A stretch of 64,000 nucleotides of DNA. It comes from an uncultured Bacteroidota bacterium (GTDB lineage: Bacteria > Bacteroidota > Bacteroidia > Chitinophagales > Chitinophagaceae). The position numbers were made by a program, and so were the translations under genes. The DNA is taken from the NCBI GenBank assembly GCA_903835005.1, contig CAILLK010000127.1, forward strand, positions 1-64,000, read 5' to 3'. Below, in pieces: positions 930-31,463 of this stretch. Each line of letters opens with the position of its first letter. Position 1 is the first letter of the stretch. The notes below the pieces were generated by a model. That model was not told the origin of the DNA, made no database searches, and was given only the letters and a program-made list of their open reading frames with translations.

Positions 930-2357
930 ATGAAGCAAGTCATTTCATTTATAGTACTCTCTGCATTTACCCTATTGTGTTTTGGACAAGTTAAACAGGT
1001 ATCCGAAGCAAATGCAGAAACAGGCAATGCCGCAGGAAAATCCAAAATTACGAATCCTGAAAAAAATACACCATGGCCTTATAAGCATTCGGTGAACTGT
1101 AGTATACAAGACAAAAACGGCGATATCTGGTTTGGCACTACTGACGGGTTATACAGATATAATGGCAAACTGTTTACTAATTACAAGACTATTGATGGCA
1201 TAAGTTTTGAGGGCATGACAAAAATTATAGAAGACAAAGCCGGGAATATATATTTTGGTGCAACCGGAGGTGTTATCCGCTATAATATCTTACAGTCAAA
1301 GAGCCGGAGCAATCCATCATTTACAGGTATAAAAATCCCTGTTTCCATGTCCAACGTCAATTTCTCAGAATCGTTGAAAAGTAATTTGTATGGCAACGAG
1401 TCAGTAAAACCAGTAAACCAACTTATGGAGGATAGTAAGGGAATAATCCGGTTTACGGTTGGGTATCATTTGTATTATATAGACAAGGTTACAGATGATG
1501 CCAGATGCACAGCCATTGGCAATTATCTCCGGAACGAAAAAATACAAATGAGCAAAGGTGATCCCGATGACTTTGGCATAACAGCCATGTGCGAGGACCC
1601 GCAAGGCAACATTCTGCTAGGTGTCGTTTCATGCGGATGCTGCTACAATGTGACTTATAAAATAAACAGGGAGCGGCTGGAGCATCCTTGCATTCTAAAT
1701 AATTGCCATCATGACCTGAGCAATCCCGAAGACCTTGCCACCCACAACTCGGAAATTACAGCATCATTAAAAAAAATAACACAGGAAAGTACTAACATGT
1801 CATTTGGAACTGCATTAAAAGACAGGCATGGTAATATGTGGTTCGGAGGAGTAGAAAAAGGAGGTGTATATAAGTATGATGGAGCGCATTTTATCCGCTG
1901 CATGGATAATGAAGAGCTGAATAAAAGTATAATAAGCACCATATTTGAAGACAGCAAAGGAAATTTCTGGTTTGGCACATACGCCGATTCAACCCTTGCC
2001 GGAAATGGTGTATTCAGGTACAATCCTTATGCTAAGGGTGGATCTTCAATAGCGCACTACACTATAAAAGATGGTTTATGCAGCAATCATCCATTCAGTA
2101 ACGACGTTATTACTTCTTTAAACGAAGATAAAACTGGTAAAATGTGGTTTGGTGGCGATGGCGGTATTTGCTATTATGCCACAGGCGCGCATAATGCTGG
2201 CAATGTCAATTTCACCAATTTCAGAGAGGAGGAAGGCATGAATGACGACCATGTTAACTTTATTCTTAAAACCAGATCGGGTGAAATATGGTTGGGTACA
2301 TGGAATCTGGGGATTTATAAATATGATGGCAAGCAGTTGATAAGTTTTAATAATTAA
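930..2357 (+). CDS. Secreted two-component-regulator-type beta-propeller (Reg_prop) protein
   Basis: A 475-aa protein with a signal peptide (MKQVISFIVLSAFTLLCFGQ) followed by repeated Reg_prop blades: GDIWFGTTDGLYRYNGK near residue 67, GNIYFGATGGVIRYN near 107, GNMWFGGVEKGGVYKYDG near 300, GNFWFGTYAD near 340, GKMWFGGDGGICYY near 408 and GEIWLGTWNLGIYKYDG near the C-terminus. In hybrid two-component systems these blades form the periplasmic sensor, but here no TM, kinase or DNA-binding part follows. The protein is therefore a stand-alone exported propeller, probably periplasmic or surface-bound. A CGCC cluster (VVSCGCCYN, about residue 235) interrupts the blades. No T9SS C-terminal domain is visible. 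The ligand is unknown. Confidence 0.75.
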   Translation: MKQVISFIVLSAFTLLCFGQVKQVSEANAETGNAAGKSKITNPEKNTPWPYKHSVNCSIQDKNGDIWFGTTDGLYRYNGKLFTNYKTIDGISFEGMTKIIEDKAGNIYFGATGGVIRYNILQSKSRSNPSFTGIKIPVSMSNVNFSESLKSNLYGNESVKPVNQLMEDSKGIIRFTVGYHLYYIDKVTDDARCTAIGNYLRNEKIQMSKGDPDDFGITAMCEDPQGNILLGVVSCGCCYNVTYKINRERLEHPCILNNCHHDLSNPEDLATHNSEITASLKKITQESTNMSFGTALKDRHGNMWFGGVEKGGVYKYDGAHFIRCMDNEELNKSIISTIFEDSKGNFWFGTYADSTLAGNGVFRYNPYAKGGSSIAHYTIKDGLCSNHPFSNDVITSLNEDKTGKMWFGGDGGICYYATGAHNAGNVNFTNFREEEGMNDDHVNFILKTRSGEIWLGTWNLGIYKYDGKQLISFNN

Positions 2358-2621
2358 TAAAACATAGCATGGTCTTGTTAGACAATATATCCGGAAAAAT
2401 TCCATTACAGTCGCGTGTACTTACCGTTGCATCTTTCTTCTCCCTGTTGCAAAGCCATGCAAGCAGGGCAATCCCTTTTTTATTGTAATTTTACCACATT
2501 ATTACAACTATCACCTATAATCAAGAGGTTTCCCTTAAGTTAAAAGGATAATCTCAAAATTAGTTGATAGTGTTAAATATATGAGGTCTCTTTTTTTAAA
2601 GATTTTAATGCTGAATAAATC
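2358..2621. other. Intergenic stretch, no gene seen
   Basis: AT-rich spacer. A short AGGG-CAAT-CCCT stem followed by a T run at about 2464-2480 could be a weak terminator for the propeller gene. No clear TAnnTTTG promoter box is visible before the aminotransferase. Confidence 0.3.
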
Positions 2622-3701
2622 ATGATCAATGTTACCAAGCCGTTTCTGCCGGAGATTGAGGAATACATAACGTATTTAAGGGGCATATGGGACCGCAACT
2701 GGCTCACTAATAACGGGCCGCTGGTCAATGACCTGGAGCTAAAGCTGAAGGAGTACCTGAATGTGAAGCACCTGCTCTACCTGGGCAATGGCACTATAGC
2801 CCTGCAGATAGCCATTAAGGCGCTGGGGTTGAAGGGGGAGATCATTACAACCCCCTTTTCGTATGTGGCTACTACATCGGCTATAGTATGGGAGGGATGT
2901 GATCCGGTTTTCGCGGATATTGATAAAGATACATTTAACATAGATCCGGCAAAAATAGAGCAGGCCATTACTGATAAAACAACTGGCATACTGGCCACAC
3001 ATGTATTCGGTAATCCCTGCGATATAGATGCCATTCAAAAGATAGCTGTTAAGCATAACCTGAAGGTAATTTATGATGCGGCCCATTGTTTCGGCACTCA
3101 TTACAAGGGCAAAAGCGTGTATAACTACGGAGATGTAAGTACTGCAAGTTTTCATGCTACCAAGTTGTTTCATACCATAGAGGGTGGGGCAGTGATAACC
3201 AATAATGCCGAACTACTGAAGAAAATGGCCTATATGCGGAATTTCGGGCATGAAACTGCCGAGACTTTTGCAGGAGTGGGCATCAACGGGAAAAATTCTG
3301 AATTTCATGCGGCTATGGGCCTGGCTAACCTCAGGCATATTGAGGCTATTCAGCAATCCCGGAAAGACCAGGCTGCAATGTATGATAAAGAACTGGCCGG
3401 ATTGAGAGTGAGGCGGCCTAAAATTCAGGCCAATTCAGTATGGAATCATTCGTATTATCCTGTTGTATTTGAAACGGAAGAACTATTGCTGCGCAGTATA
3501 GCAGAACTGAATGATAACTGGATTTATCCCCGGCGGTATTTTTATCCCAGTCTTTCAGGGCTGAATTATGTGAAGAAGGGCGATACGCCTGTATCCGATA
3601 ATTTAGCCAGCCGGATACTGAGTCTGCCGCTCTCTCACTCACTGAAACGGGAGGAGATCGCTTTTATAAGCAGGATATTGCTGCGTGTGCAGAACAATTG
3701 A
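2622..3701 (+). CDS. DegT/DnrJ/EryC1/StrS sugar aminotransferase (VioA/FdtB-like)
   Basis: A 359-aa PLP-dependent transaminase that aminates a nucleotide-linked keto-sugar in the cytoplasm, feeding O-antigen or surface-glycan synthesis. The opening VTKPFLPEIEEYITYL and WLTNNGP is characteristic of the VioA/FdtB branch (dTDP-4-amino-4,6-dideoxyhexose transaminases). The PLP-anchoring Asp is in IYDAAHCFG (D152) and the Schiff-base lysine in FHATKLFHTIEGGA (K181). The length is close to the family norm. It stands convergent to the hddA/GT2 pair, which also points to glycan assembly. The exact sugar substrate cannot be read from sequence; the family branch is fairly certain. Confidence 0.88.
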   Translation: MINVTKPFLPEIEEYITYLRGIWDRNWLTNNGPLVNDLELKLKEYLNVKHLLYLGNGTIALQIAIKALGLKGEIITTPFSYVATTSAIVWEGCDPVFADIDKDTFNIDPAKIEQAITDKTTGILATHVFGNPCDIDAIQKIAVKHNLKVIYDAAHCFGTHYKGKSVYNYGDVSTASFHATKLFHTIEGGAVITNNAELLKKMAYMRNFGHETAETFAGVGINGKNSEFHAAMGLANLRHIEAIQQSRKDQAAMYDKELAGLRVRRPKIQANSVWNHSYYPVVFETEELLLRSIAELNDNWIYPRRYFYPSLSGLNYVKKGDTPVSDNLASRILSLPLSHSLKREEIAFISRILLRVQNN

Positions 3702-3738: not shown

Positions 3739-4656
3739 CTATCTCACAAACACATTTTTCATAAAAAAGCCCTTCAGGGTGAACCATTGGGAGAAGACCA
3801 CATAACGACCCTTAATTTCCTGGCCCTTAAGTGCAAACAATAGCCATAGCAGCCATGAGGCGCCGAACTTGACCATGTATTCAGTCATTTTGCGAAGCAC
3901 TGCAAGGCCTCCTTTTTCTTCGCGCACCCTTATTCTCTCATCTGAGCCGGTTTTGAGGAAGAGTTTCTTAAAACTGCTGAACTGAAGCCGCTCATTATCA
4001 ATGTTGTGATAAACAAGGGCATCGGGTATATAATAAACAATGTCGTTGATGGGCTTTATAGCAAAATAGATCTGTTTATCATCGCTGCGGAAAGTGAGTT
4101 TGTTATTAAATCCGCCGGATTTTAAAAGAACATCTTTTCGGTAGGTCATGTTGCAACCGGCGGGGTATTTCATTTTGCCTTCATAGCGGCGCGGGGGCTG
4201 GCCATGATCGGCTACGCCCACATAGCCGGCAAGGTATTTGTTCATCCAGCGGGGTTCACCATCTTCCGAATATTTTGGTAATACCCGCCCGCCAGCTCCC
4301 GCCGCCTCAGGATGCAGTATCAGGAAGTCGTAAATCGTTTTGGCAAATTCAGGTATTGCCTCAGCATCGTCATCTATAAAGGTAATGACATCATACTTGG
4401 CCTCCTGTATGCCCCGGTTGCGGGCAAATGCAAGCCCTTTGCTGGCTTCAAATACATATCGGTAGGGCAGATCCGGATGGGTGCTTATATACTCCTTAAT
4501 GATCTCGGCAGATTTATCGGTGCTGTTATTATCCACAAATACCACTTCAAAACAAGCCTTATCAAGGGTTTGCAGCGAAAGGCATTGCAGGCAGTTATAA
4601 ATAAACTTCTGGCGGTTGTAAGTGCAAACAACTATAGATAGCCCTGGTCCCTGCAT
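3739..4656 (-). CDS. Family 2 glycosyltransferase
   Basis: A 305-aa GT-A fold enzyme that transfers a sugar from a nucleotide donor to a surface-glycan acceptor. The N-terminal nucleotide-binding strand is LSIVVCTYNRQKFI, followed by VVFVDNNSTDKS, and the metal-binding DXD-type motif is FIDDDAEAIPEF at about residue 115. A basic, hydrophobic C-terminus (WLLWLLFALKGQEIKGRY) suggests peripheral membrane attachment. It lies 93 nt downstream of hddA on the same strand, so the two are probably cotranscribed, which makes a heptose or amino-sugar glycan a reasonable but unproven acceptor or donor context. Confidence 0.88.
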   Translation of the reverse strand: MQGPGLSIVVCTYNRQKFIYNCLQCLSLQTLDKACFEVVFVDNNSTDKSAEIIKEYISTHPDLPYRYVFEASKGLAFARNRGIQEAKYDVITFIDDDAEAIPEFAKTIYDFLILHPEAAGAGGRVLPKYSEDGEPRWMNKYLAGYVGVADHGQPPRRYEGKMKYPAGCNMTYRKDVLLKSGGFNNKLTFRSDDKQIYFAIKPINDIVYYIPDALVYHNIDNERLQFSSFKKLFLKTGSDERIRVREEKGGLAVLRKMTEYMVKFGASWLLWLLFALKGQEIKGRYVVFSQWFTLKGFFMKNVFVR

Positions 4657-4749
4657 AATGAGTATATTGTAAATTGCGGTAAAGCAGCGGAGGTAAAAAT
4701 AATCAAAATGATAGTATCATTGCCAGGCCACAAACATCGTTGAACAGTT

Positions 4750-5772
4750 TTAGATACTCCAGGTAACCAAACCCCGCTCTGTGAACTGATAAGCCCTGAA
4801 TTCGCCGCCAAAGTTTTCGAGCGCTTTCTTAACCTGATAACGCGTATTGCCGGGGCAGTAGAACATCATAAACCCGCCTCCGCCCGCTCCCGATATTTTG
4901 CCACCGGTAGCGCCGGCTTTAAGAGCAGTTTCATATATCTCGTCCATCGAAGAATTAGAAATGCCCTTGGCCATTTGTTTTTTATAGCGGAAGCCAAAAT
5001 CGAGTATGCTGCCTATGTCGTGTATATTGCCTTTGAGCAGGGCTTCTTTCATCATCAGCGCCTGTTCCTTTAGGTGGTGCATGGCCTCTATGGATTCTTT
5101 GTTTTTATCCTTTACATTCTGGCTCTGGGCTTCTATAATTGTAGAAGACAATCTGCTGGTGGCAGTAAAGTAAAGTAAGAGGTTGTTCTCAAGTTCAAAC
5201 AGGTACTCCTGCTTGATGCGGAGCGGATTAACTATAACTTTATTATCATGATAAAACTCCATGAAGTTGACACCGCCGAAAGTTGCTGCATACTGGTCCT
5301 GCTTGCCGCCGGCCATAGCCAGTTCCACCCGCTCCACATCGTAGGCCATCTGGGCAATATCATATTCGCCCAGGGGCAGGTTGAGCCATTCGGCAAAAAC
5401 ACCGATGATAGCTACCATAAGGGTAGATGAACTGCCCAACCCAGATCCGGCAGGGGCATCAACAATAGTTGATAATTTAAATCCGGATGGCACAGGGCCA
5501 TATTTCTTAACAATATAATTATAAGCTCCGCAAGCCAGGTCCAGTTGCCCGTCAATGGGAAGCGAGTCGCTCCTGTCATAGCTCACTGTTTCTTCCCGGT
5601 CAACCGCCTCTATAATAATTTCTGGTAGCGCCAGTGGCTCAATGGTAGCATAGGCATAGAGGGAAATTGTGGCATTGAGTATGGCTCCGCCATAGAGGTC
5701 GCAATAAGGGCTTACATCTGTGCCGCCACCGGCAAGGCCTATACGCAACGGCGCTTTACTTCTGTATATCAT
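4750..5772 (-). CDS. hddA: D-glycero-alpha-D-manno-heptose-7-phosphate kinase (GHMP kinase)
   Basis: A 340-aa GHMP-superfamily kinase. It matches HddA, which phosphorylates D-glycero-alpha-D-manno-heptose 7-phosphate at C1 on the way to GDP-heptose for S-layer or capsule glycans. Diagnostic blocks are RSKAPLRIGLAGGGTDVSPY at the N-terminus, the ATP-binding DAPAGSGLGSSSTL (about 105-118), GGKQDQYAATFGG, and motif 3 KISGAGGGGFMMFYC near the C-terminus. The initiating ATG at 5772 fits the family start. Leading gene of a probable two-gene operon with the downstream GT2. Related L-fucose kinase-like GHMP enzymes are the main alternative. Confidence 0.87.
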   Translation of the reverse strand: MIYRSKAPLRIGLAGGGTDVSPYCDLYGGAILNATISLYAYATIEPLALPEIIIEAVDREETVSYDRSDSLPIDGQLDLACGAYNYIVKKYGPVPSGFKLSTIVDAPAGSGLGSSSTLMVAIIGVFAEWLNLPLGEYDIAQMAYDVERVELAMAGGKQDQYAATFGGVNFMEFYHDNKVIVNPLRIKQEYLFELENNLLLYFTATSRLSSTIIEAQSQNVKDKNKESIEAMHHLKEQALMMKEALLKGNIHDIGSILDFGFRYKKQMAKGISNSSMDEIYETALKAGATGGKISGAGGGGFMMFYCPGNTRYQVKKALENFGGEFRAYQFTERGLVTWSI

Positions 5773-22779: not shown

Positions 22780-25700
22780 CTATTGAATCACCACTTTAGA
22801 TGAATAACTACCGTTAGCTGTTGTCACGCTTACGATGTAAATTCCGGGAGCGTTGTTAATTTCCATCAGATTCACCTTGTTGGTAACAGAGGTGAGCTTC
22901 TTCACTGTCTGGCCGAGAATGTTGGCAACCTTAATCTCAGCGGCTTCATCTCTGTCCGACAAGAGGTTTACGGTAAAATTCCCTTCATTCGGATTTGGAT
23001 AAACCTGCAATTCAGGACCAGTAACCAAAACATCTTCGCCATCGCCAGATGCGCGGCCACCCTTATGTATGCATGGATTTACGGTAACAACCGTGGTCGC
23101 AGTTGCTGAGAAGCAAACATTATGCACAGTGTAGGTGATAGAGCACAAACGGGGGAAAAAGCTGTAACCGGTAGCAATTGCGTGCGTTCCTGTAAACGAA
23201 AAGATGGAACACGAAGAACCGTATACGCCGCCAGGGTCGCCGCCTGTGTTGATGATATTGGTACCAACGGGGCCGTAACACAACGGGTTCGGAGATGCTG
23301 TTATTGTTCCGGCATTCGGATATCCGATCACGTCTATGTAATTGGTGGCTGACACACACCCGTACACGCTCTTGTAGTATATACCGGTCCAGCCCGGAGT
23401 GGTTCCCTTAACACTGGTAATCCAGCCGCCCGGAGGTAACGGAGTTATGCCTCCTCCCAAAGATATGGTGTACCAGCCACCGAACACCGGCGATGCGGAG
23501 TATGGGATTGTGGAACCCAGGCAAACCGTTGTTCCGCCGCTTATAACCGGACTCGGATTGACGGTTACAGCCCCAAAAACAATACAGCCGTTTTTATTGT
23601 AGGTGATGTATTCGGTGCAAGGCCCCGAAACACCGGTTAACACGCCGGCCGGCGTAATGCTTGCACAACCCGAAGATAAACTGAATGTTCCTCCGGCAGG
23701 GTTTACAGTACAGGTTACTGAAGCACCAACGCAAACATTTGCCGGTAAGTTAATCGTTGGTATCGGATTGATGGTTACTGTAACCTGTCCGGAACAGCCG
23801 TATGAATTGGTGAAGTAGAACGTCTCTGGTCCGGGACTCATGGCATTCACACCATTGTTCAGGGCAGTTGGCGAAATCGGGGTAGCATGCCCCAGGCCGG
23901 AAGTAGTCCAGGTGCCGGGACCCGGCGTTGCATGAAGCGTATTTACATAAGATTCAAGATTACAGTAGCTGAACTGTGTAGCCCAGACAGTTGGCGTCGG
24001 GTTGTTGGTTACAGTATAAGTACTGGTACATCCTGAGCCCGATGTATAGGTAATTGTAGCAGAACATGGCGTTGTAATACTACCCGCACCACTGCAAACA
24101 CCGGTCAAAGGATTTACAGACACACAAGAAGGATTGCTGCTGGTCCATGACCCTCCGGAGCAGGATACAGACAATGCAATTGAACTGCCGGAGCAGACAG
24201 TATGCGGATTTACAACCGGTCCGGTAATAGTGCATACCGGATTAACCGTTACCGGAACGGTTACCGAACAGCCGCCGGCTGAATAAGTAACCGAACCCAC
24301 ACATGGTGCGAACAACCCGGTTACTACCCTCGATGAAGTGGTTCCCACAGGTGTCATATTTACGCATGGGGTGCTGGTCCATGTACCACCTGAAGGCGTG
24401 GGGTTAAGGGTAGCCGAGGTCCCCGCACATATTGTCACAGGATCGGGGGACACCGAAGGTATGGCCAGAACGTTTACAGTAAAAGAAGCTGGACAGCCTG
24501 AAGTAGTAGTATAACTGATTACGGTATAGCCGGGAGCTGCACCAGTAAACAAGCCGCTCATCAAATTTATCGGCCCTACCGAAGGGGTACTGCTTAACCA
24601 GGTGCCACCCGTACAAGGTGCCGCACTGTAGATATATGTACTGCCGGTACATAGAGTAGCTGGCCCGGCTATAGGACATACCGCATTCACCGTAACATTG
24701 TAAGTAGTGATACATCCTGCAGCAGAAGTATAGCTTATAGTAACTACACCTGATCCTACGCCATGAACAATGCCAGTGCAGCTAACTGTAGCCACAGAAG
24801 CATCACTGCTGCTCCAGGGGCAAGGCGGAGCGGGGCTGCAGGAAGTAGTTAATGTCAGATTATTGCCAACGCATATAGATGTGGCTGATCCGGATATCGG
24901 GCACGGGGCAATCGGAGCTGAAGTTACAGATCCCGACATATTACTGGTGCAACCAATGGAATTAGTTGCTTTTATGGTATAAGTACACGGGCCGCATTCA
25001 GGGCCAAAATCCAGGGCGCTTCCGGTTCCTGCCAGCACCGGAGTTACCAATGTAGAGCCACATGATAATTGGTAATTGACCCCAGTCTGGGAGCAACCTA
25101 AGAATACATGAGGGCAAGCATTAGGGCACGGGCCACCTGTGCAATAGCTGCCACCGCCGGTTACGGAACATACAGCAGGTAAAGCATCTACTGTAACTGT
25201 CATATAGGTACTGCAGCCGATATCGGATACATGCGTAATTGTAACTGTTCCACCTGAAATTCCAGTCACAACACCGGTACACGAGCCTACAGTTGCAACA
25301 CTTGGATTGCTGCTGCTCCAGGTGCAACTGCTGCAGCTGCTTAATGTAGCAGTTCCGCCGGCACAAATGTGATTGTTGCCGGTTATCTCACAGCCTGCGC
25401 AGCAACAGGGTACTGCTTTGGTTTCATTTACTATTAATGAACCGGCATCATGGGTTGATTTAATAGTACCAACGACATTAAGTCCGGCAGAATTTGGCGA
25501 TATATCGGTGCCTCCTGAAGGATGTGAATAATTATAAACATCAACATTCAGATAGTGGATACCAGCTGTCAAATAAAGAGTTGTGCTGGCAGTATGAAAA
25601 GAAGCAGCTGCGCAATCAGCTCCCACAGGATAAGAGTAAAATGAAGCGCCACCGTCAATATTAGTTGCCGCAATGTAGTTGTCAAACGCCAATTGCAGGT

Positions 25701-28107
25701 TAATGGTTACCGTATCTGATGTGCACATTGAAAATGGCCTGGTCAAAATCATATGGTAGAGACTGCCTGCATATGTTTTATATCCACCACTATTATTAAG
25801 ACAGCTTATCCAGCCACTTTTTGGGTTGGTGCCCCAACAGGCACTGAAGCCAATGTCTATCACATCCGCACTGGCACCTGCAGCCACTTCTATAATCCCG
25901 GGGCAAGGTGGATCCGAAAGCAGCGAGGCTGCTATCGTAGGACTTTCATAGGTAACAATCCACTTCGGATCCGGAACCGGTGCACTGCAGTCTGTTCCGT
26001 GTACTACAGCTGAATTTGTTACCGGGTCATAACCCGTATTGACGATTATAGAATCCACACAACAGGAAGTTGTATCTCTTACCACAGTGCCGCCACAATA
26101 CGGTATAGTCACTATAGCAGTTACAAAGCATCCGGGCGATGTCTGATACTTGATTGTAGTCGTGCAGGGGCCAGGACCTGCATTGGTTGCAGTTACAACA
26201 CCCGTTGAGCTTATGGAACCACATGCCGTATTACTGCTGCTCCACGAGCCACCACCGGTGGGGTCAGTAAGCGTAATACTTGTTGCAGGACAAACAATGG
26301 ACGTTGGCCCTGATATAGGTGCCGGTGGCGCAGTAATAGACACTGTAGCGCTGCCTAGCATATTGTTCACACAACCTGTTATATTATCAGTGCCTGTAAC
26401 TGTGTAGGTGCAGGAAACGCACTGAGGGCCCAGGTCTAAAGGCCCGCCTGTTCCGCCCATAGAAGCAACCACGGTAGTGCCGCAATAAACCTTGTAGGTA
26501 ACACCGGCTTGCGAATTGCTCAGGTATATGTGCGGGCAACCTGCAGAGCTGTCGCAATAGCTGCCTCCGCCCGAAACGTTATAAACAACAGGCAGCGGGG
26601 CCACTGTAACCGTAGCGCTTCCATTCATTGTGTCGCTGCATCCTGAAGTTGCATTGGTAGCTACCACCTTGTAAATACAATTGCTGCAGAATAATCCGAA
26701 ATTCAATGCCGAGCCAGTACCAGACAAAGGTGCCCCCACGGGGGTTGTTCCGCAATACAACTGATAGTTGATACCAGGCGTAGAACAGCTCAATCCAACC
26801 GGAACACCGGCTGAACCCGTGCAACAATACCCGCCTCCCGTCACTGTACACAAGGGAGGTAAAGTGCCCAGAGTTACAGTTGCGCTTCCGGTCATTGTGC
26901 TGCTGCACCCTGTTACCAGGTTGGTTGCAACAACTGTATAAGCACATGCTGTGCAGAAAGCGCCAAAATCAATAGCTGCGCCGGTTCCGGCCACAGGAGC
27001 ACCTACAGGCGAAGCCCCGCACATCAGCTGATAACTTATACCGGGTGCGGAGCAGCTCAATCCAACATGCACACCCGTGCCACCCGGACAGCAAACACCG
27101 CCTCCGGTTACCGTGCACAAAGGAGGCAAAGGATTTACAGTTATTGTAACGGTCTGCGGTGTCCCGGGGCAACCATTTGCCGAAGGAGTTACTGTTATTG
27201 TGGCCACCACCGGGGTTGACCCTGAATTTATGGCTGTAAACGGAGCAATGGTACTGCCTGTGCCTGCTGCCGCCAGCCCGATAGACGGGTTAGTATTGGT
27301 CCACGAAAAAGTAGTTCCTGGTACGGTTGATGTAAAAATAATCGCGGCAGTGTTTGACTGGCTGCAAATTACCTGGCTGGCAGATACAGTTACCACCGGA
27401 ACAGGGAACACAGATACCGTTGCCGTGGCATAACAGCCGTCAGCCAATGTGTAAGTTACTGTGCCGGTGCACGGAGCAGTGACGCCGGTGCAGACACCCG
27501 TTAAGGCCGCAACCGACACGCATGGGCTGCCGCTGCTGAAGGTGCCTCCTGATGTGGGATCAGATAGTGTAGTTGTGTTACCTGCCCCGCATATACTCAT
27601 CGTGCCCGTTATAGCTGCCGGTGAGGCATTGACCGAGACAGTATGTGTCACATAGCAGGCGGGGTTTCCATAAGTAATGGTAGCCACACAGGGCGCCGTA
27701 ACGCCTGTAACTACGCCGGTAGCGCTGACAGTTGCGCAGGGGTTACTGCTGGACCAGGAATTTCCCGGCGTAGGATCTGTCAGCACTATCGTTTGTCCCG
27801 CACAAACCGACGAAGCGCCCGAAATGGGGGCCGGCGTGGCATATACCGTAACAGGATACGTGGTAAAACCACCACCTGAAAAATTGTAGGTAATAGTGGT
27901 TACACCGACTGAGATGCCAATGATTAATCCGGTTGAGCTTCCAATGCTCCCGACAGCCGAATTACTGCTGGCCCAGGTGCCGCCTCCCGAAGCGTCTGTT
28001 ACTGTAATGGTGGATCCGGTACATACTACATTCGGGCCACCTATCGGTTGCGCAAAAGCACCCAGTGTGCTTAAGTAAAACACGAGTAATAAAATTACGT
28101 TTTTCAT
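22780..28107 (-). CDS. Giant T9SS-secreted, cysteine-rich Ig-like repeat protein
   Basis: 1775 aa. After a signal peptide come two repeat types. Type A (about 70-75 residues) reads GGTWSSSNPSVATV..TGVVTGVS.GT.TITY, a Big_2/Ig-like unit ending in TVNP. Type B (about 80-90 residues) occurs about four times (starting near residues 327, 412, 505 and 980) as CTVTGGG.CC, VGLSCS..GI.YQL.CG, FG.FC..C.Y.VVATN. Both carry cysteines at repeated positions, far more than usual for these families, so disulfide-stabilised modules are likely. A non-repeat domain lies at about 700-890 (KWIVTYESPTIAASL to VVGTIKSTHDAGSL). The last 77 residues are the T9SS sorting domain (VYPNPNEGNFTVNL, GIYIVSVTTANGSY). Surface adhesin or matrix protein by inference. 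Confidence 0.9.
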   Translation of the reverse strand: MKNVILLLVFYLSTLGAFAQPIGGPNVVCTGSTITVTDASGGGTWASSNSAVGSIGSSTGLIIGISVGVTTITYNFSGGGFTTYPVTVYATPAPISGASSVCAGQTIVLTDPTPGNSWSSSNPCATVSATGVVTGVTAPCVATITYGNPACYVTHTVSVNASPAAITGTMSICGAGNTTTLSDPTSGGTFSSGSPCVSVAALTGVCTGVTAPCTGTVTYTLADGCYATATVSVFPVPVVTVSASQVICSQSNTAAIIFTSTVPGTTFSWTNTNPSIGLAAAGTGSTIAPFTAINSGSTPVVATITVTPSANGCPGTPQTVTITVNPLPPLCTVTGGGVCCPGGTGVHVGLSCSAPGISYQLMCGASPVGAPVAGTGAAIDFGAFCTACAYTVVATNLVTGCSSTMTGSATVTLGTLPPLCTVTGGGYCCTGSAGVPVGLSCSTPGINYQLYCGTTPVGAPLSGTGSALNFGLFCSNCIYKVVATNATSGCSDTMNGSATVTVAPLPVVYNVSGGGSYCDSSAGCPHIYLSNSQAGVTYKVYCGTTVVASMGGTGGPLDLGPQCVSCTYTVTGTDNITGCVNNMLGSATVSITAPPAPISGPTSIVCPATSITLTDPTGGGSWSSSNTACGSISSTGVVTATNAGPGPCTTTIKYQTSPGCFVTAIVTIPYCGGTVVRDTTSCCVDSIIVNTGYDPVTNSAVVHGTDCSAPVPDPKWIVTYESPTIAASLLSDPPCPGIIEVAAGASADVIDIGFSACWGTNPKSGWISCLNNSGGYKTYAGSLYHMILTRPFSMCTSDTVTINLQLAFDNYIAATNIDGGASFYSYPVGADCAAASFHTASTTLYLTAGIHYLNVDVYNYSHPSGGTDISPNSAGLNVVGTIKSTHDAGSLIVNETKAVPCCCAGCEITGNNHICAGGTATLSSCSSCTWSSSNPSVATVGSCTGVVTGISGGTVTITHVSDIGCSTYMTVTVDALPAVCSVTGGGSYCTGGPCPNACPHVFLGCSQTGVNYQLSCGSTLVTPVLAGTGSALDFGPECGPCTYTIKATNSIGCTSNMSGSVTSAPIAPCPISGSATSICVGNNLTLTTSCSPAPPCPWSSSDASVATVSCTGIVHGVGSGVVTISYTSAAGCITTYNVTVNAVCPIAGPATLCTGSTYIYSAAPCTGGTWLSSTPSVGPINLMSGLFTGAAPGYTVISYTTTSGCPASFTVNVLAIPSVSPDPVTICAGTSATLNPTPSGGTWTSTPCVNMTPVGTTSSRVVTGLFAPCVGSVTYSAGGCSVTVPVTVNPVCTITGPVVNPHTVCSGSSIALSVSCSGGSWTSSNPSCVSVNPLTGVCSGAGSITTPCSATITYTSGSGCTSTYTVTNNPTPTVWATQFSYCNLESYVNTLHATPGPGTWTTSGLGHATPISPTALNNGVNAMSPGPETFYFTNSYGCSGQVTVTINPIPTINLPANVCVGASVTCTVNPAGGTFSLSSGCASITPAGVLTGVSGPCTEYITYNKNGCIVFGAVTVNPSPVISGGTTVCLGSTIPYSASPVFGGWYTISLGGGITPLPPGGWITSVKGTTPGWTGIYYKSVYGCVSATNYIDVIGYPNAGTITASPNPLCYGPVGTNIINTGGDPGGVYGSSCSIFSFTGTHAIATGYSFFPRLCSITYTVHNVCFSATATTVVTVNPCIHKGGRASGDGEDVLVTGPELQVYPNPNEGNFTVNLLSDRDEAAEIKVANILGQTVKKLTSVTNKVNLMEINNAPGIYIVSVTTANGSYSSKVVIQ

Positions 28108-28402: not shown

Positions 28403-28424
28403 AATACCGTTAAACAACGGTATT
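28403..28424. repeat. Inverted repeat, possible operator
   Basis: AATACCGTT-aaac-AACGGTATT, 9-bp perfect arms, 9 nt upstream of the -7 box of the signalling operon. Both adjacent genes point away, so a terminator is unlikely and a regulator site is possible. Confidence 0.4.
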
Positions 28425-28582: not shown

Positions 28583-29362
28583 ATGAAAGTTCAAAAAGTA
28601 ATTATTTCAGCTTTGGTAATACTGAGCCTGGGAACTATTGGTTACCTTTTCTGGCAGAATCAACTTATGGCCAAGCAAATTGCATCTTATAAAATGGTGA
28701 CAACGTGTTCTAGCTGCTATTCGCCAAATTGCGAGATTTCACCACAATTTGACCTCCCTGCTGCCATGGAACTGGTTAGCAATTATAGAAATAATCATTG
28801 GATGAAAATCAATGGTAATTGTGCTCCTTTTAATATTGCAACTATGGCAGGTAAGAAAGATGCCGATACAATAATAGATTCACGAAGTGCTTGGTTCGAT
28901 CTGGATACATTGAAGAAATTCATACATACGATTGAAGTCAGTTCCTGTTGTGATACATGTCCGAATCTGGTACTTGGAATAAGAATTTATTATGCGGAAT
29001 ATCCGCAAGATACAGCTGAATTGAGAGTCAGGTACAACGTAAACAATCCAAGTTATGCAGGTCTTCATACTTTATTAATGATTCCTACCTTCAGGGATGA
29101 GATAAGCAGAGATGTAGATTTCAATCCAGGCCAGATAATCAGAACTGGCTGTTCAGTATTATCCACTTTCGAAACAACCACAACCGGCCCTGTTTTTTCA
29201 ATGTTACCTTCAACAACTGCAAAAAACCATGGAGGCTTAGCCCCACCACCCTATTTCTGTAATCTTTATTGGAATAACACAGGAGCCCTCTTTATGAAAT
29301 ATGTTGATGCCAATGGATATAATAGTTCTGGAACACTGAATTGCCCACCCACAGGAAATTAG
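28583..29362 (+). CDS. Membrane-anchored cysteine-rich protein of unknown function
   Basis: 259 aa from ATG 28583. The start was chosen because it opens directly into an N-terminal anchor (VIISALVILSLGTIGYLFW); the track start at 28475 would bury that anchor behind 36 polar residues. The extracytoplasmic part has several Cys pairs (TTCSSCYSPNC, SSCCDTCPN, GTLNC), a predicted helix LDTLKKFIHTIE, and YCLY-like beta strands (LVLGIRIYYAEY). I do not recognise the family. It heads a tight operon with a polytopic membrane protein (13 nt), a histidine kinase and a response regulator, so a sensory or accessory role is plausible. The gene is more AT-rich than the regulator genes. Confidence 0.7.
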   Translation: MKVQKVIISALVILSLGTIGYLFWQNQLMAKQIASYKMVTTCSSCYSPNCEISPQFDLPAAMELVSNYRNNHWMKINGNCAPFNIATMAGKKDADTIIDSRSAWFDLDTLKKFIHTIEVSSCCDTCPNLVLGIRIYYAEYPQDTAELRVRYNVNNPSYAGLHTLLMIPTFRDEISRDVDFNPGQIIRTGCSVLSTFETTTTGPVFSMLPSTTAKNHGGLAPPPYFCNLYWNNTGALFMKYVDANGYNSSGTLNCPPTGN

Positions 29363-29375
29363 ATAAAACAGGATC

Positions 29376-30044
29376 ATGGATATTTCATTGGTTATATTTT
29401 ATTGTTTTGAGGCATTGCCATTGCTGGTAAGTCTTTTTTATCTGAATAAAGTAAGAGGCAATCATTTCAAATGGTTTGCTTTTTACTTGCTATACATATT
29501 TATTGCCGACCTGTTTGGTGAGTTCATGAATATTATGCAAATTCACAACCAATGGTTTTATGCTTGTCTTGTTATTCCGGTAGAATTCGCTTTCTTCTTT
29601 TGGCTTTTTTATAAAGCTTCCATGACAAAAACTGAAAAAAGGTTGCCAATTATTTTTTTGGGAATATATTCAATGAGTCTCATATTCGATTTCCTCTATT
29701 TTGCGAAGCATCTATTTCCTTTTTACTCATTTTCCTACAGTATTGGCAATCTTTTATTGTTGATCCTGATAATCTCTTTTTTTATTCAGCTTACCAATAG
29801 CGACTTAATTTTAACCTACAGAAATAATATGATGTTTTGGATAAGCATTGGCTTACTCATATTTTACCTGGGTAGCCTCCCATATTACGGTCTATTCAAC
29901 GAATTTGCTTTTAAATATGTGAGGCTGAATATTATTTATAATAAAGTTTCGAAGATATTGGATTGCACTATGTACCTTATGTTTGCATTCAGTTTTATAT
30001 GGGGGAAACCGAACTTACAATCTTCGCAGTCATCATCAACCTGA
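29376..30044 (+). CDS. Polytopic membrane protein of unknown function in signalling operon
   Basis: 222 aa with six or seven hydrophobic segments: LVIFYCFEALPLLVSLFYL, WFAFYLLYIFIADLF, WFYACLVIPVEFAFFFWLFY, LPIIFLGIYSMSLIFDFLYF, IGNLLLLILIISFFIQL, MMFWISIGLLIFYLGSL and a last one (MYLMFAFSFIW). No enzyme motif. The last 46 nt overlap the histidine-kinase gene in another frame, so production of the two proteins is coupled. By position it may be the signal-receiving partner of the kinase, whose own N-terminus has only one TM helix. This is inference from context. Confidence 0.72.
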   Translation: MDISLVIFYCFEALPLLVSLFYLNKVRGNHFKWFAFYLLYIFIADLFGEFMNIMQIHNQWFYACLVIPVEFAFFFWLFYKASMTKTEKRLPIIFLGIYSMSLIFDFLYFAKHLFPFYSFSYSIGNLLLLILIISFFIQLTNSDLILTYRNNMMFWISIGLLIFYLGSLPYYGLFNEFAFKYVRLNIIYNKVSKILDCTMYLMFAFSFIWGKPNLQSSQSSST

Positions 30045-30802
30045 TTCTGCTCGTATTCATAGGAGGCATCATTATATTCTTCCTCAAATACACGCAGCGC
30101 AAGTTGATCAGCGAAAAAGAAAAGGCATTGCTCCGCGAGCAACATGCACAGGAACTCCTTAACTCAAAACTCGAGATGCAGCAGTTGACTATGCAGGATA
30201 TTGGCCGTGAGATTCATGATAATATAGGCCAGTTGCTCACTGTAGCATCCATCTCTGCCTATCAGGTCGCTTACGACAATGTCTGCCCGGAGGTAAATGA
30301 CAGGGTAACGGATGTGGGTAAAATTATAGACCGGTCGTTGACCGAACTCCGCAGCTTGTCACGCAGTCTTACCGATGAAAAAGCCGAAATGGCTGACTTC
30401 CTGCTACAGATACAAAAAGAGTGCGACCGGATTAATGCTCTTCAGATCTGTGTAGTTACCTGCACCTGCAATGAAAACGAATTCACCATATCAAGCAGCA
30501 GCAAGAACTTTATGCAGCGAATCATCCAGGAGTTTATTCAGAACAGCCTGAAACATGCGGAGTGTAATAACATTGAAATCCGGTTTTTTTATGGAACACT
30601 TGGCCTCTCTATGTATTTGCAAGATGATGGGAAGGGATTTGATACTCAAGCTGCAAAAAATAAAATAGGCCATGGAATAGGCCTTAAGAATATGAAAAAA
30701 CGATCGGAAATGATTGGTGCAGATTTTTTGCTTGACAGCGTTATTAATGAAGGCACTACCGTCGGTATTTTGATTCCATTGAACAGACTAAATTTATCCT
30801 AG
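29999..30802 (+). CDS. Sensor histidine kinase, NarX/HPK7 type
   Basis: 267 aa from ATG 29999 (MGETELTIFAVIINL). One N-terminal TM helix (FAVIINLILLVFIGGIIIFFL), a coiled coil (QRKLISEKEKALLREQHAQELL), the HisKA_3 H-box DIGREIHDNIGQLL (His 73) and a HATPase_c domain with N-box FIQNSLKHAE, G1 DDGKGFD and G2 GHGIGLKNMKKR. It lacks a sizeable sensor domain, so it probably reads a partner protein. The response regulator starts 1 nt after the stop. Overlap with the upstream membrane-protein gene implies translational coupling. Confidence 0.92.
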   Translation: MGETELTIFAVIINLILLVFIGGIIIFFLKYTQRKLISEKEKALLREQHAQELLNSKLEMQQLTMQDIGREIHDNIGQLLTVASISAYQVAYDNVCPEVNDRVTDVGKIIDRSLTELRSLSRSLTDEKAEMADFLLQIQKECDRINALQICVVTCTCNENEFTISSSSKNFMQRIIQEFIQNSLKHAECNNIEIRFFYGTLGLSMYLQDDGKGFDTQAAKNKIGHGIGLKNMKKRSEMIGADFLLDSVINEGTTVGILIPLNRLNLS

Positions 30803-30803
30803 C

Positions 30804-31463
30804 ATGGAATACAGCCTTGTTATTGTCGACGACCACAATATGGTATCAGGTGCGCTGGCTAAAGTGATCAACAGTTACGCCGGTTATAAGGTATTGTATA
30901 TAGCAGAACACGGCAAGGAGATGACAGAAAGGTTCAAACAGCCCAAAAACATCCCGGATATTGTGTTGCTCGATATTGCCATGCCGGTCATGGATGGCTT
31001 TGCCACTGTACAATGGCTGAAAAAAAACCATCCCGGGGTGTTGGTAATTGCACTCTCTATGCAGAATGATGATGTCTCCATTATCCGGATGATTAAATCG
31101 GGTGCCAAAGGCTACCTTCTGAAAAATAACCACCCTGAACAATTGAAACTAGCACTGGATGAGTTGGTGGCCAAAGGCTATTACTTCCCCGATTGGGTAG
31201 CCAGTAAAATATTCCTGAACCTGGGGGATGACAAAATGCATAGCCCCGTAAATATTCATTTTACTGACCGGGAAATAGAGTTTCTGAAATATTGCACCCT
31301 TGAACTCACTTATCGTGAAATTGCTGAAAAAATGATCTGCAGCAGTCGTACTGCAGAGGGATATAGAGATGCCTTGTTTGATAAACTGGGTATAAAAACC
31401 CGGGTAGGGTTGGCAGTTTATGCTATTAAAAGCGGCATTGAACATTATAATCAGGGCCAATAA
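30804..31463 (+). CDS. NarL/LuxR-type response regulator
   Basis: 219 aa. Receiver domain with acidic pocket VIVDDHN (Asp 9/10), phospho-acceptor Asp 57 in VLLDIAMPVMDG, and the conserved Lys in KGYLLKNNHP. The C-terminal LuxR-type HTH begins at about residue 150 (FTDREIEFLKYCTLELTYREIAEKM, RTAEGYRDALFDKLGI). DNA-binding partner of the kinase immediately upstream. Targets unknown; the inverted repeat ahead of the operon is a candidate for autoregulation. Confidence 0.94.
   Translation: MEYSLVIVDDHNMVSGALAKVINSYAGYKVLYIAEHGKEMTERFKQPKNIPDIVLLDIAMPVMDGFATVQWLKKNHPGVLVIALSMQNDDVSIIRMIKSGAKGYLLKNNHPEQLKLALDELVAKGYYFPDWVASKIFLNLGDDKMHSPVNIHFTDREIEFLKYCTLELTYREIAEKMICSSRTAEGYRDALFDKLGIKTRVGLAVYAIKSGIEHYNQGQ

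Follow-up and report, generated by a model that had tools for sequence, protein, structure and literature searches.

The LiaFSR and VraTSR systems of Firmicutes are three-component systems in which the gene for a membrane protein adjoins those for a NarL-type regulator and a HisKA_3 kinase that has little in the way of a sensor domain. In UhpABC, a polytopic membrane sensor works in trans, its target being a HisKA_3 kinase that signals to a NarL-type regulator; UhpC is transporter-like and has about 12 helices. The 7TMR-DISM receptor kinases are single polypeptides that carry Pfam 7TMR-DISM domains, and the agr quorum-sensing operon, which is autoregulated, encodes a variable protein, a membrane protein, a kinase and a regulator. 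For the first of these systems, LiaF is reported to modulate its kinase (PMC7191749).

Here we describe a four-gene operon within a 64,000-nucleotide stretch of Bacteroidota DNA, the whole of which we refer to as the window. We propose that the operon is probably an autoregulated two-component system in which sensing is split over two separate proteins. The original prediction for this DNA knew of no named system with this set of genes. Genes 1 and 2 are unmatched in Pfam and NCBIfam, and a search of the open-access literature found no description of the four-gene system.

Organization of the locus

Four co-directional ORFs occupy positions 28583 to 31463 of the window (Table 1). The spacings agree with those originally given, with 13 nt between gene 1 and gene 2, an overlap of 46 nt between gene 2 and the kinase gene, and 1 nt between the kinase and regulator genes. 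An inverted repeat had also been placed at the promoter, and it proved to be real, with perfect 9-bp arms. As claimed, the kinase is short and without a sensor domain; a single membrane helix lies at its N-terminus, and no Pfam domain other than HisKA_3 and HATPase_c scored above cut-off. The regulator was correctly called NarL-type, with Response_reg and GerE both above their Pfam cut-offs. With these four domains and with the phospho-His and phospho-Asp residues present (candidate phospho-acceptors H73 of the kinase and D57 of the regulator), the pair belongs to the HisKA_3/NarL class of two-component systems, and phosphotransfer from the kinase to the regulator would be expected. With the UhpB model, the kinase gave a generic score that was far below cut-off. 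A defense system was considered and rejected: PADLOC gave no convincing match, and the one weak match of the kinase, to ZorB, covers the N-terminal helix and coiled coil.

Table 1. Positions of the operon, its operator, the gene 1 core motifs and a neighboring gene in the window
Feature	Position	Strand	Description
Gene 1	28583-29362	+	259 aa; membrane-anchored and exported; protein family without a name
Gene 1 core motif DSRSAWF	28877-28897	+	Family core
Gene 1 core motif GIRIYYAEYP	28976-29005	+	Family core
Gene 1 core motif YAGLHTLLMIPT	29054-29089	+	Family core
Gene 1 core motif NHGGLAPPP	29225-29251	+	Family core
Gene 2	29376-30044	+	222 aa; membrane protein with seven predicted helices, unnamed family, putative receptor/transducer
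Short histidine kinase	29999-30802	+	267 aa; HisKA_3 + HATPase_c
NarL-type response regulator	30804-31463	+	219 aa; Response_reg + GerE
Operator, perfect inverted repeat	28403-28424	.	Predicted target of the operon's own regulator (rarity, paralogue copy, conservation)
Divergent Big_2 Ig-like repeat protein	22780-28107	-	1775 aa; may belong to the regulon; has a type IX secretion tail

Conservation of the four-gene unit

The four-gene unit is not limited to the host genome and is spread over the Bacteroidota. A collection scan with a single-protein query returned nothing, and the same scan with the gene 2 alignment returned 80 loci, every one of which carries a record title naming Bacteroidota or a subgroup (Chitinophagales, Flavobacteriaceae, Spirosomataceae, Saprospiraceae and others). 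Of these loci, 76 have gene 1 as their immediate upstream neighbor and 76 have a kinase downstream, with the regulator right after the kinase in about 71 (a count made on the listed loci). Among the four that lack the kinase, three stop at a contig edge, and the ORFs of gene 2 and the kinase overlap in most of the 80. Because these loci had been picked through gene 2, a reverse search from gene 1 provides an independent test. Across 346 phylum-wide genomes this search gave 54 gene 1 matches, 52 with gene 2 immediately downstream and two adjoining a more distant gene 2 together with a kinase and a regulator.

The host genome itself contains a full second set on contig C120 (identities of 32% for gene 1, 48% for gene 2, 55% for the kinase and 64% for the regulator) and about five looser copies besides. 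Six of its seven HisKA_3 kinases, and a weaker kinase on contig C48, adjoin a gene 2-type gene. Further units of gene 2, kinase and regulator lie on host contigs C13, C117, C3, C48 and C124 (L245, L246, L247, L248 and L249, respectively); with the exception of the one on C48, their upstream proteins no longer match the gene 1 profile, and most have a CPxxC-type motif at the end. In reality the gene 1 superfamily is probably larger than the profile detects.

In a sample of 150 genomes of the same family, relatives of gene 1 were found in 13 and relatives of gene 2 in 60. Twenty regions were mapped, and the close group has the order gene 1, gene 2, kinase, regulator; all kinases with E ≤ 1e-48 are found in this arrangement, with gene 1 partly visible in one fragmented genome. 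Distant members retain gene 2, kinase and regulator, usually preceded by a protein of 155-175 aa. Profile comparison identifies this upstream protein as a distant gene 1 homologue (probability 98.9%) and relates the two gene 2 groups to each other (probability 99.9%), the E-values being those of a single comparison. Thirty kinase loci were examined in the 150 genomes (L075-L104), and 28 adjoin a gene 2-type gene; of the remaining two, L099 has a multi-helix N-terminus of its own and L103 has neither. The original prediction that these genes form one signaling operon is supported: gene 1 homologues co-occur with the other genes, and the kinase loci examined did not show the frequent kinase/regulator pairs lacking the first two genes that would have spoken against it.

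Properties of the gene 1 and gene 2 proteins

Gene 2, for which six or seven helices had been proposed, is predicted to have seven long helices in an AlphaFold2 model made with 74 sequences (pLDDT 93.9). Residues F154, W155 and G159 are invariant, and the charges of the loops are compatible with an N-out/C-in orientation, though not decisive. Neither gene 2 nor the 74-member alignment has a credible match in Pfam or NCBIfam, and no PDB structure matched significantly, none having E below 0.001. The best weak structural matches were GPCRs and rhodopsins, with TM scores of ~0.5 and E of 0.075 or worse, which any seven-helix bundle might give.

Gene 1 had been described as N-anchored and Cys-rich. 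Both terms fit the window copy, which has an N-terminal hydrophobic helix and 10 cysteines in total, among them those of a CSSC motif (residues 42-45) and a CCDTC motif (residues 122-126), but neither is a trait of the family. The cysteines are not conserved, C42 and C45 occur only in some anchored members, and a Cys-rich sensor or redox role was rejected on these grounds. An anchor or lipoprotein signal was detected in 41 of 76 members by a rough hydropathy screen, which misses weak lipoprotein signals and so overestimates the share of members that are signal-less. In the C120 paralogue, and in several relatives too, the protein clearly begins without an export signal. That many homologues have no detectable export signal is a poor fit with a role for gene 1 solely as a periplasmic sensor.

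Members of the gene 1 family are 130-300 aa long and have a conserved core, with the signature D-x-R-S-x-W-F, G-I-R-x-Y-[YF], HT-x-x-M-x-PT and a terminal N-H-G-G-x-x-PP, each element of which varies. Gene 1 is evolving more quickly than gene 2, with a mean column identity in the alignments of 17% compared with 31%, and several genomes carry tandem gene 1 duplicates ahead of one gene 2; faster divergence and tandem duplication are what would be expected of the input part of a signaling system. Five loci of Flavobacteriia (L161, L163, L144, L128 and L150) have gene 1 or gene 2 in tandem within a single operon. No credible match to gene 1 or its alignment was found in Pfam or NCBIfam, and a PDB search with gene 1 gave no match. 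The structure model of gene 1 is moderate to weak (pLDDT 71.4), showing an N-terminal helix followed by an alpha/beta core, and by Foldseek it resembles no solved structure. A metal-binding or known periplasmic domain was likewise rejected, as Pfam, NCBIfam and PDB were empty and Foldseek returned only noise.

The operator and its candidate regulon

The operator, AATACCGTT-AAAC-AACGGTATT, lies about 159 nt upstream of gene 1. Three perfect copies of ATACCGTT-N4-AACGGTAT are present in the 5.9-Mb host genome (in the window, on C69 and on C132), where about 0.001 would be expected by chance for 16 fixed bases, a figure obtained by arithmetic with equal base use. A copy with one mismatch lies ~180 nt before the paralogous gene 1 on C120. 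Upstream of gene 1-type genes, TACCGTT-N4-AACGGTA was found with 0-2 mismatches in 22 of 95 regions compared with 0 of 95 for a reversed control, the former count being somewhat inflated because a few loci are the same operon fetched twice; operator-to-gene distances in these upstream regions are mostly 60-230 nt. Twelve genomes chosen for related operons contained 74 sites at ≤1 mismatch against 20 control sites, and in the 150 family genomes perfect sites numbered 28, compared with 9 for the control, with a concentration in G000 and G099. Several of the perfect sites outside these two genomes are likewise just upstream of such modules, two of them in G029 and one each in G064, G025 and G045.

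A chance match as the explanation of the repeat was rejected on the basis of the controls. We conclude that the repeat is a real operator, predicted to be the site of the operon's own regulator. The conservation of the operator, like the gene unit, the ORF overlap and the domain content, is established at the level of sequence, and so, as a predicted model, are the seven helices of gene 2. Most Flavobacteriia loci among the 95 upstream regions have no copy, and hence autoregulation through TACCGTT-N4-AACGGTA is supported for part of the family only.

The operator sites mark a small candidate regulon, as seen from the genes that follow them in several genomes, and a theme of surface or secreted proteins is suggested. 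One recurrent target, found in four genomes, is a protein of 91-107 aa and of unknown family, which is probably a core regulon member; its genes lie at L260 4225-4500, L299 2570-2845, L290 2510-2833 and L318 735-1016, with the operator about 10-45 nt upstream. A protein of 169-171 aa with a type IX secretion tail and a 120-aa protein (recognized by eye) each recur in two genomes. The 1775-aa Ig-repeat protein of the window has a homologue in G487 (L309, 3229-5499), 60% identical over 776 residues, which is likewise divergent from a gene 1 operon and has an additional operator of its own. Targets seen in single genomes carry, by Pfam, secretion tails, Kelch repeats, a patatin-like domain and weak metallopeptidase matches, and most have no family. 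Some operator-linked proteins look surface-located or secreted and have no evident signal peptide (L258 1793-3922, L314 605-2998, L312 2615-4084 and L304 2725-4536). At L257, on host contig C132, a perfect operator lies between the genes for a 190-aa unknown protein and a divergent protein that is ArdC-like by eye (3982-4851 and 5162-5734).

The operator is also found at L099 (G045, 1492-2868, minus strand), where the kinase is 458 aa long and itself carries several membrane helices at the N-terminus. A perfect copy lies ~49 nt upstream of this kinase, and the accompanying regulator is close to that of the window (E about 5e-80). By analogy, L099 may represent a one-protein version of the system. 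A fusion of gene 2 to the kinase was considered and rejected, since the multi-helix N-terminus has no detectable similarity to the gene 2 profile, and for that reason L099 serves only as an analogy.

Proposed mechanism and alternatives

In the mechanism that we propose, gene 1 would be a fast-evolving input protein, anchored and facing the periplasm in the case of the window copy, and gene 2 would be a seven-helix receptor or transducer in the membrane. Together they would sense a stimulus and relay it, controlling the single-helix, sensor-less histidine kinase, which would then phosphorylate the NarL-type regulator. The regulator would bind TACCGTT-N4-AACGGTA upstream of gene 1, and we infer both this binding and the sign of the regulation that follows from it. 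Regulator binding at this position would mean that the system controls its own expression along with a small regulon that includes surface and secreted proteins. We favor the division of sensing between two proteins, which the original prediction had also suggested, because of the fixed gene order, the gene overlap, the sensor-less kinase, the divergence and duplication of gene 1, and the helix-bearing L099 kinase under the same operator.

It could be argued that gene 2 is the only sensor and that gene 1 encodes an effector or a housekeeping protein, adjacent since it is controlled by the regulator. Gene 1 does come first behind the operator, its homologues exist with and without export signals as if location were irrelevant to sensing, and surplus copies pile up upstream in some operons. 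Regulated outputs, however, are normally found elsewhere in the genome too, and gene 1 is almost never found apart from gene 2, which is unusual for an output gene. We consider this explanation unlikely.

The operon could also be an autoinducing circuit of the agr type, with gene 1 encoding a precursor from which a cell-to-cell signal is made and gene 2 encoding the receptor or processing protein for it. The logic of the four genes is alike (precursor, membrane protein, kinase, regulator), and gene 1, hypervariable but closing with a short conserved stretch (NHGGxxPPP or CPxxC-type), is tandem-duplicated and stands behind a likely autoregulatory operator. Yet at 130-300 aa with a conserved folded core gene 1 is no short precursor, many of its homologues have no export signal, and gene 2 has no peptidase or AgrB match in Pfam or NCBIfam, leaving such a circuit distinctly improbable. 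Finally, HisKA_3 kinase/NarL regulator pairs are common in these genomes, but that an ordinary pair merely sits beside two unrelated genes is very hard to credit, given an order that stays fixed in several of the phylum's families and classes, the gene overlap and the common operator, and it is contradicted by the co-occurrence counts.

A wider and more tentative proposal, which may well prove wrong, is that separate seven-helix receptors, rhodopsin/GPCR-like in overall shape, form a large family in the Bacteroidota, each with a bare kinase in trans and a dedicated, rapidly diversifying upstream ligand or co-receptor. If true, this receptor family with its in-trans kinases would be a modular bacterial receptor system without a named counterpart. 

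The four-gene unit gives a partner and a likely input to a class of short histidine kinases without sensor domains, which Bacteroidota have in abundance and which otherwise look like orphans. Two protein families, those of gene 1 and gene 2, are defined that are absent from both Pfam and NCBIfam, and with the conserved operator both the regulon and what each part does can be tested directly.

Comparison with known systems

The operon resembles LiaFSR and VraTSR in that a membrane partner is encoded beside a HisKA_3 kinase and a NarL regulator. It differs in that LiaF has another domain, one that defines its own family, and no such LiaF-type domain was detected by Pfam or NCBIfam in gene 2 or the 74-member alignment, the membrane protein is a predicted seven-helix protein, and an extra, fast-evolving fourth protein is encoded upstream. 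With UhpABC it shares a membrane partner in trans to a HisKA_3 kinase feeding a NarL-type regulator; gene 2, however, has seven predicted helices in 222 aa and no transporter match, and UhpABC has no counterpart of gene 1. The 7TMR-DISM receptors are similar in stringing together a periplasmic input module, seven helices and a kinase, although here the parts are separate genes and no 7TMR-DISM Pfam domain was found in genes 1 and 2 or their alignments. The agr operon is similar in having four genes of such kinds and autoregulation, whereas here gene 1 is a folded domain, the kinase has a single helix and the signaling proteins are of the HisKA_3 and NarL classes; genes 1 and 2 and their alignments gave no match to the AgrB peptidase or the AgrD precursor in Pfam or NCBIfam. 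The best reading is that the system, while lacking the partner domains that define LiaFSR/VraTSR and UhpABC, works in the manner of one or the other of them.
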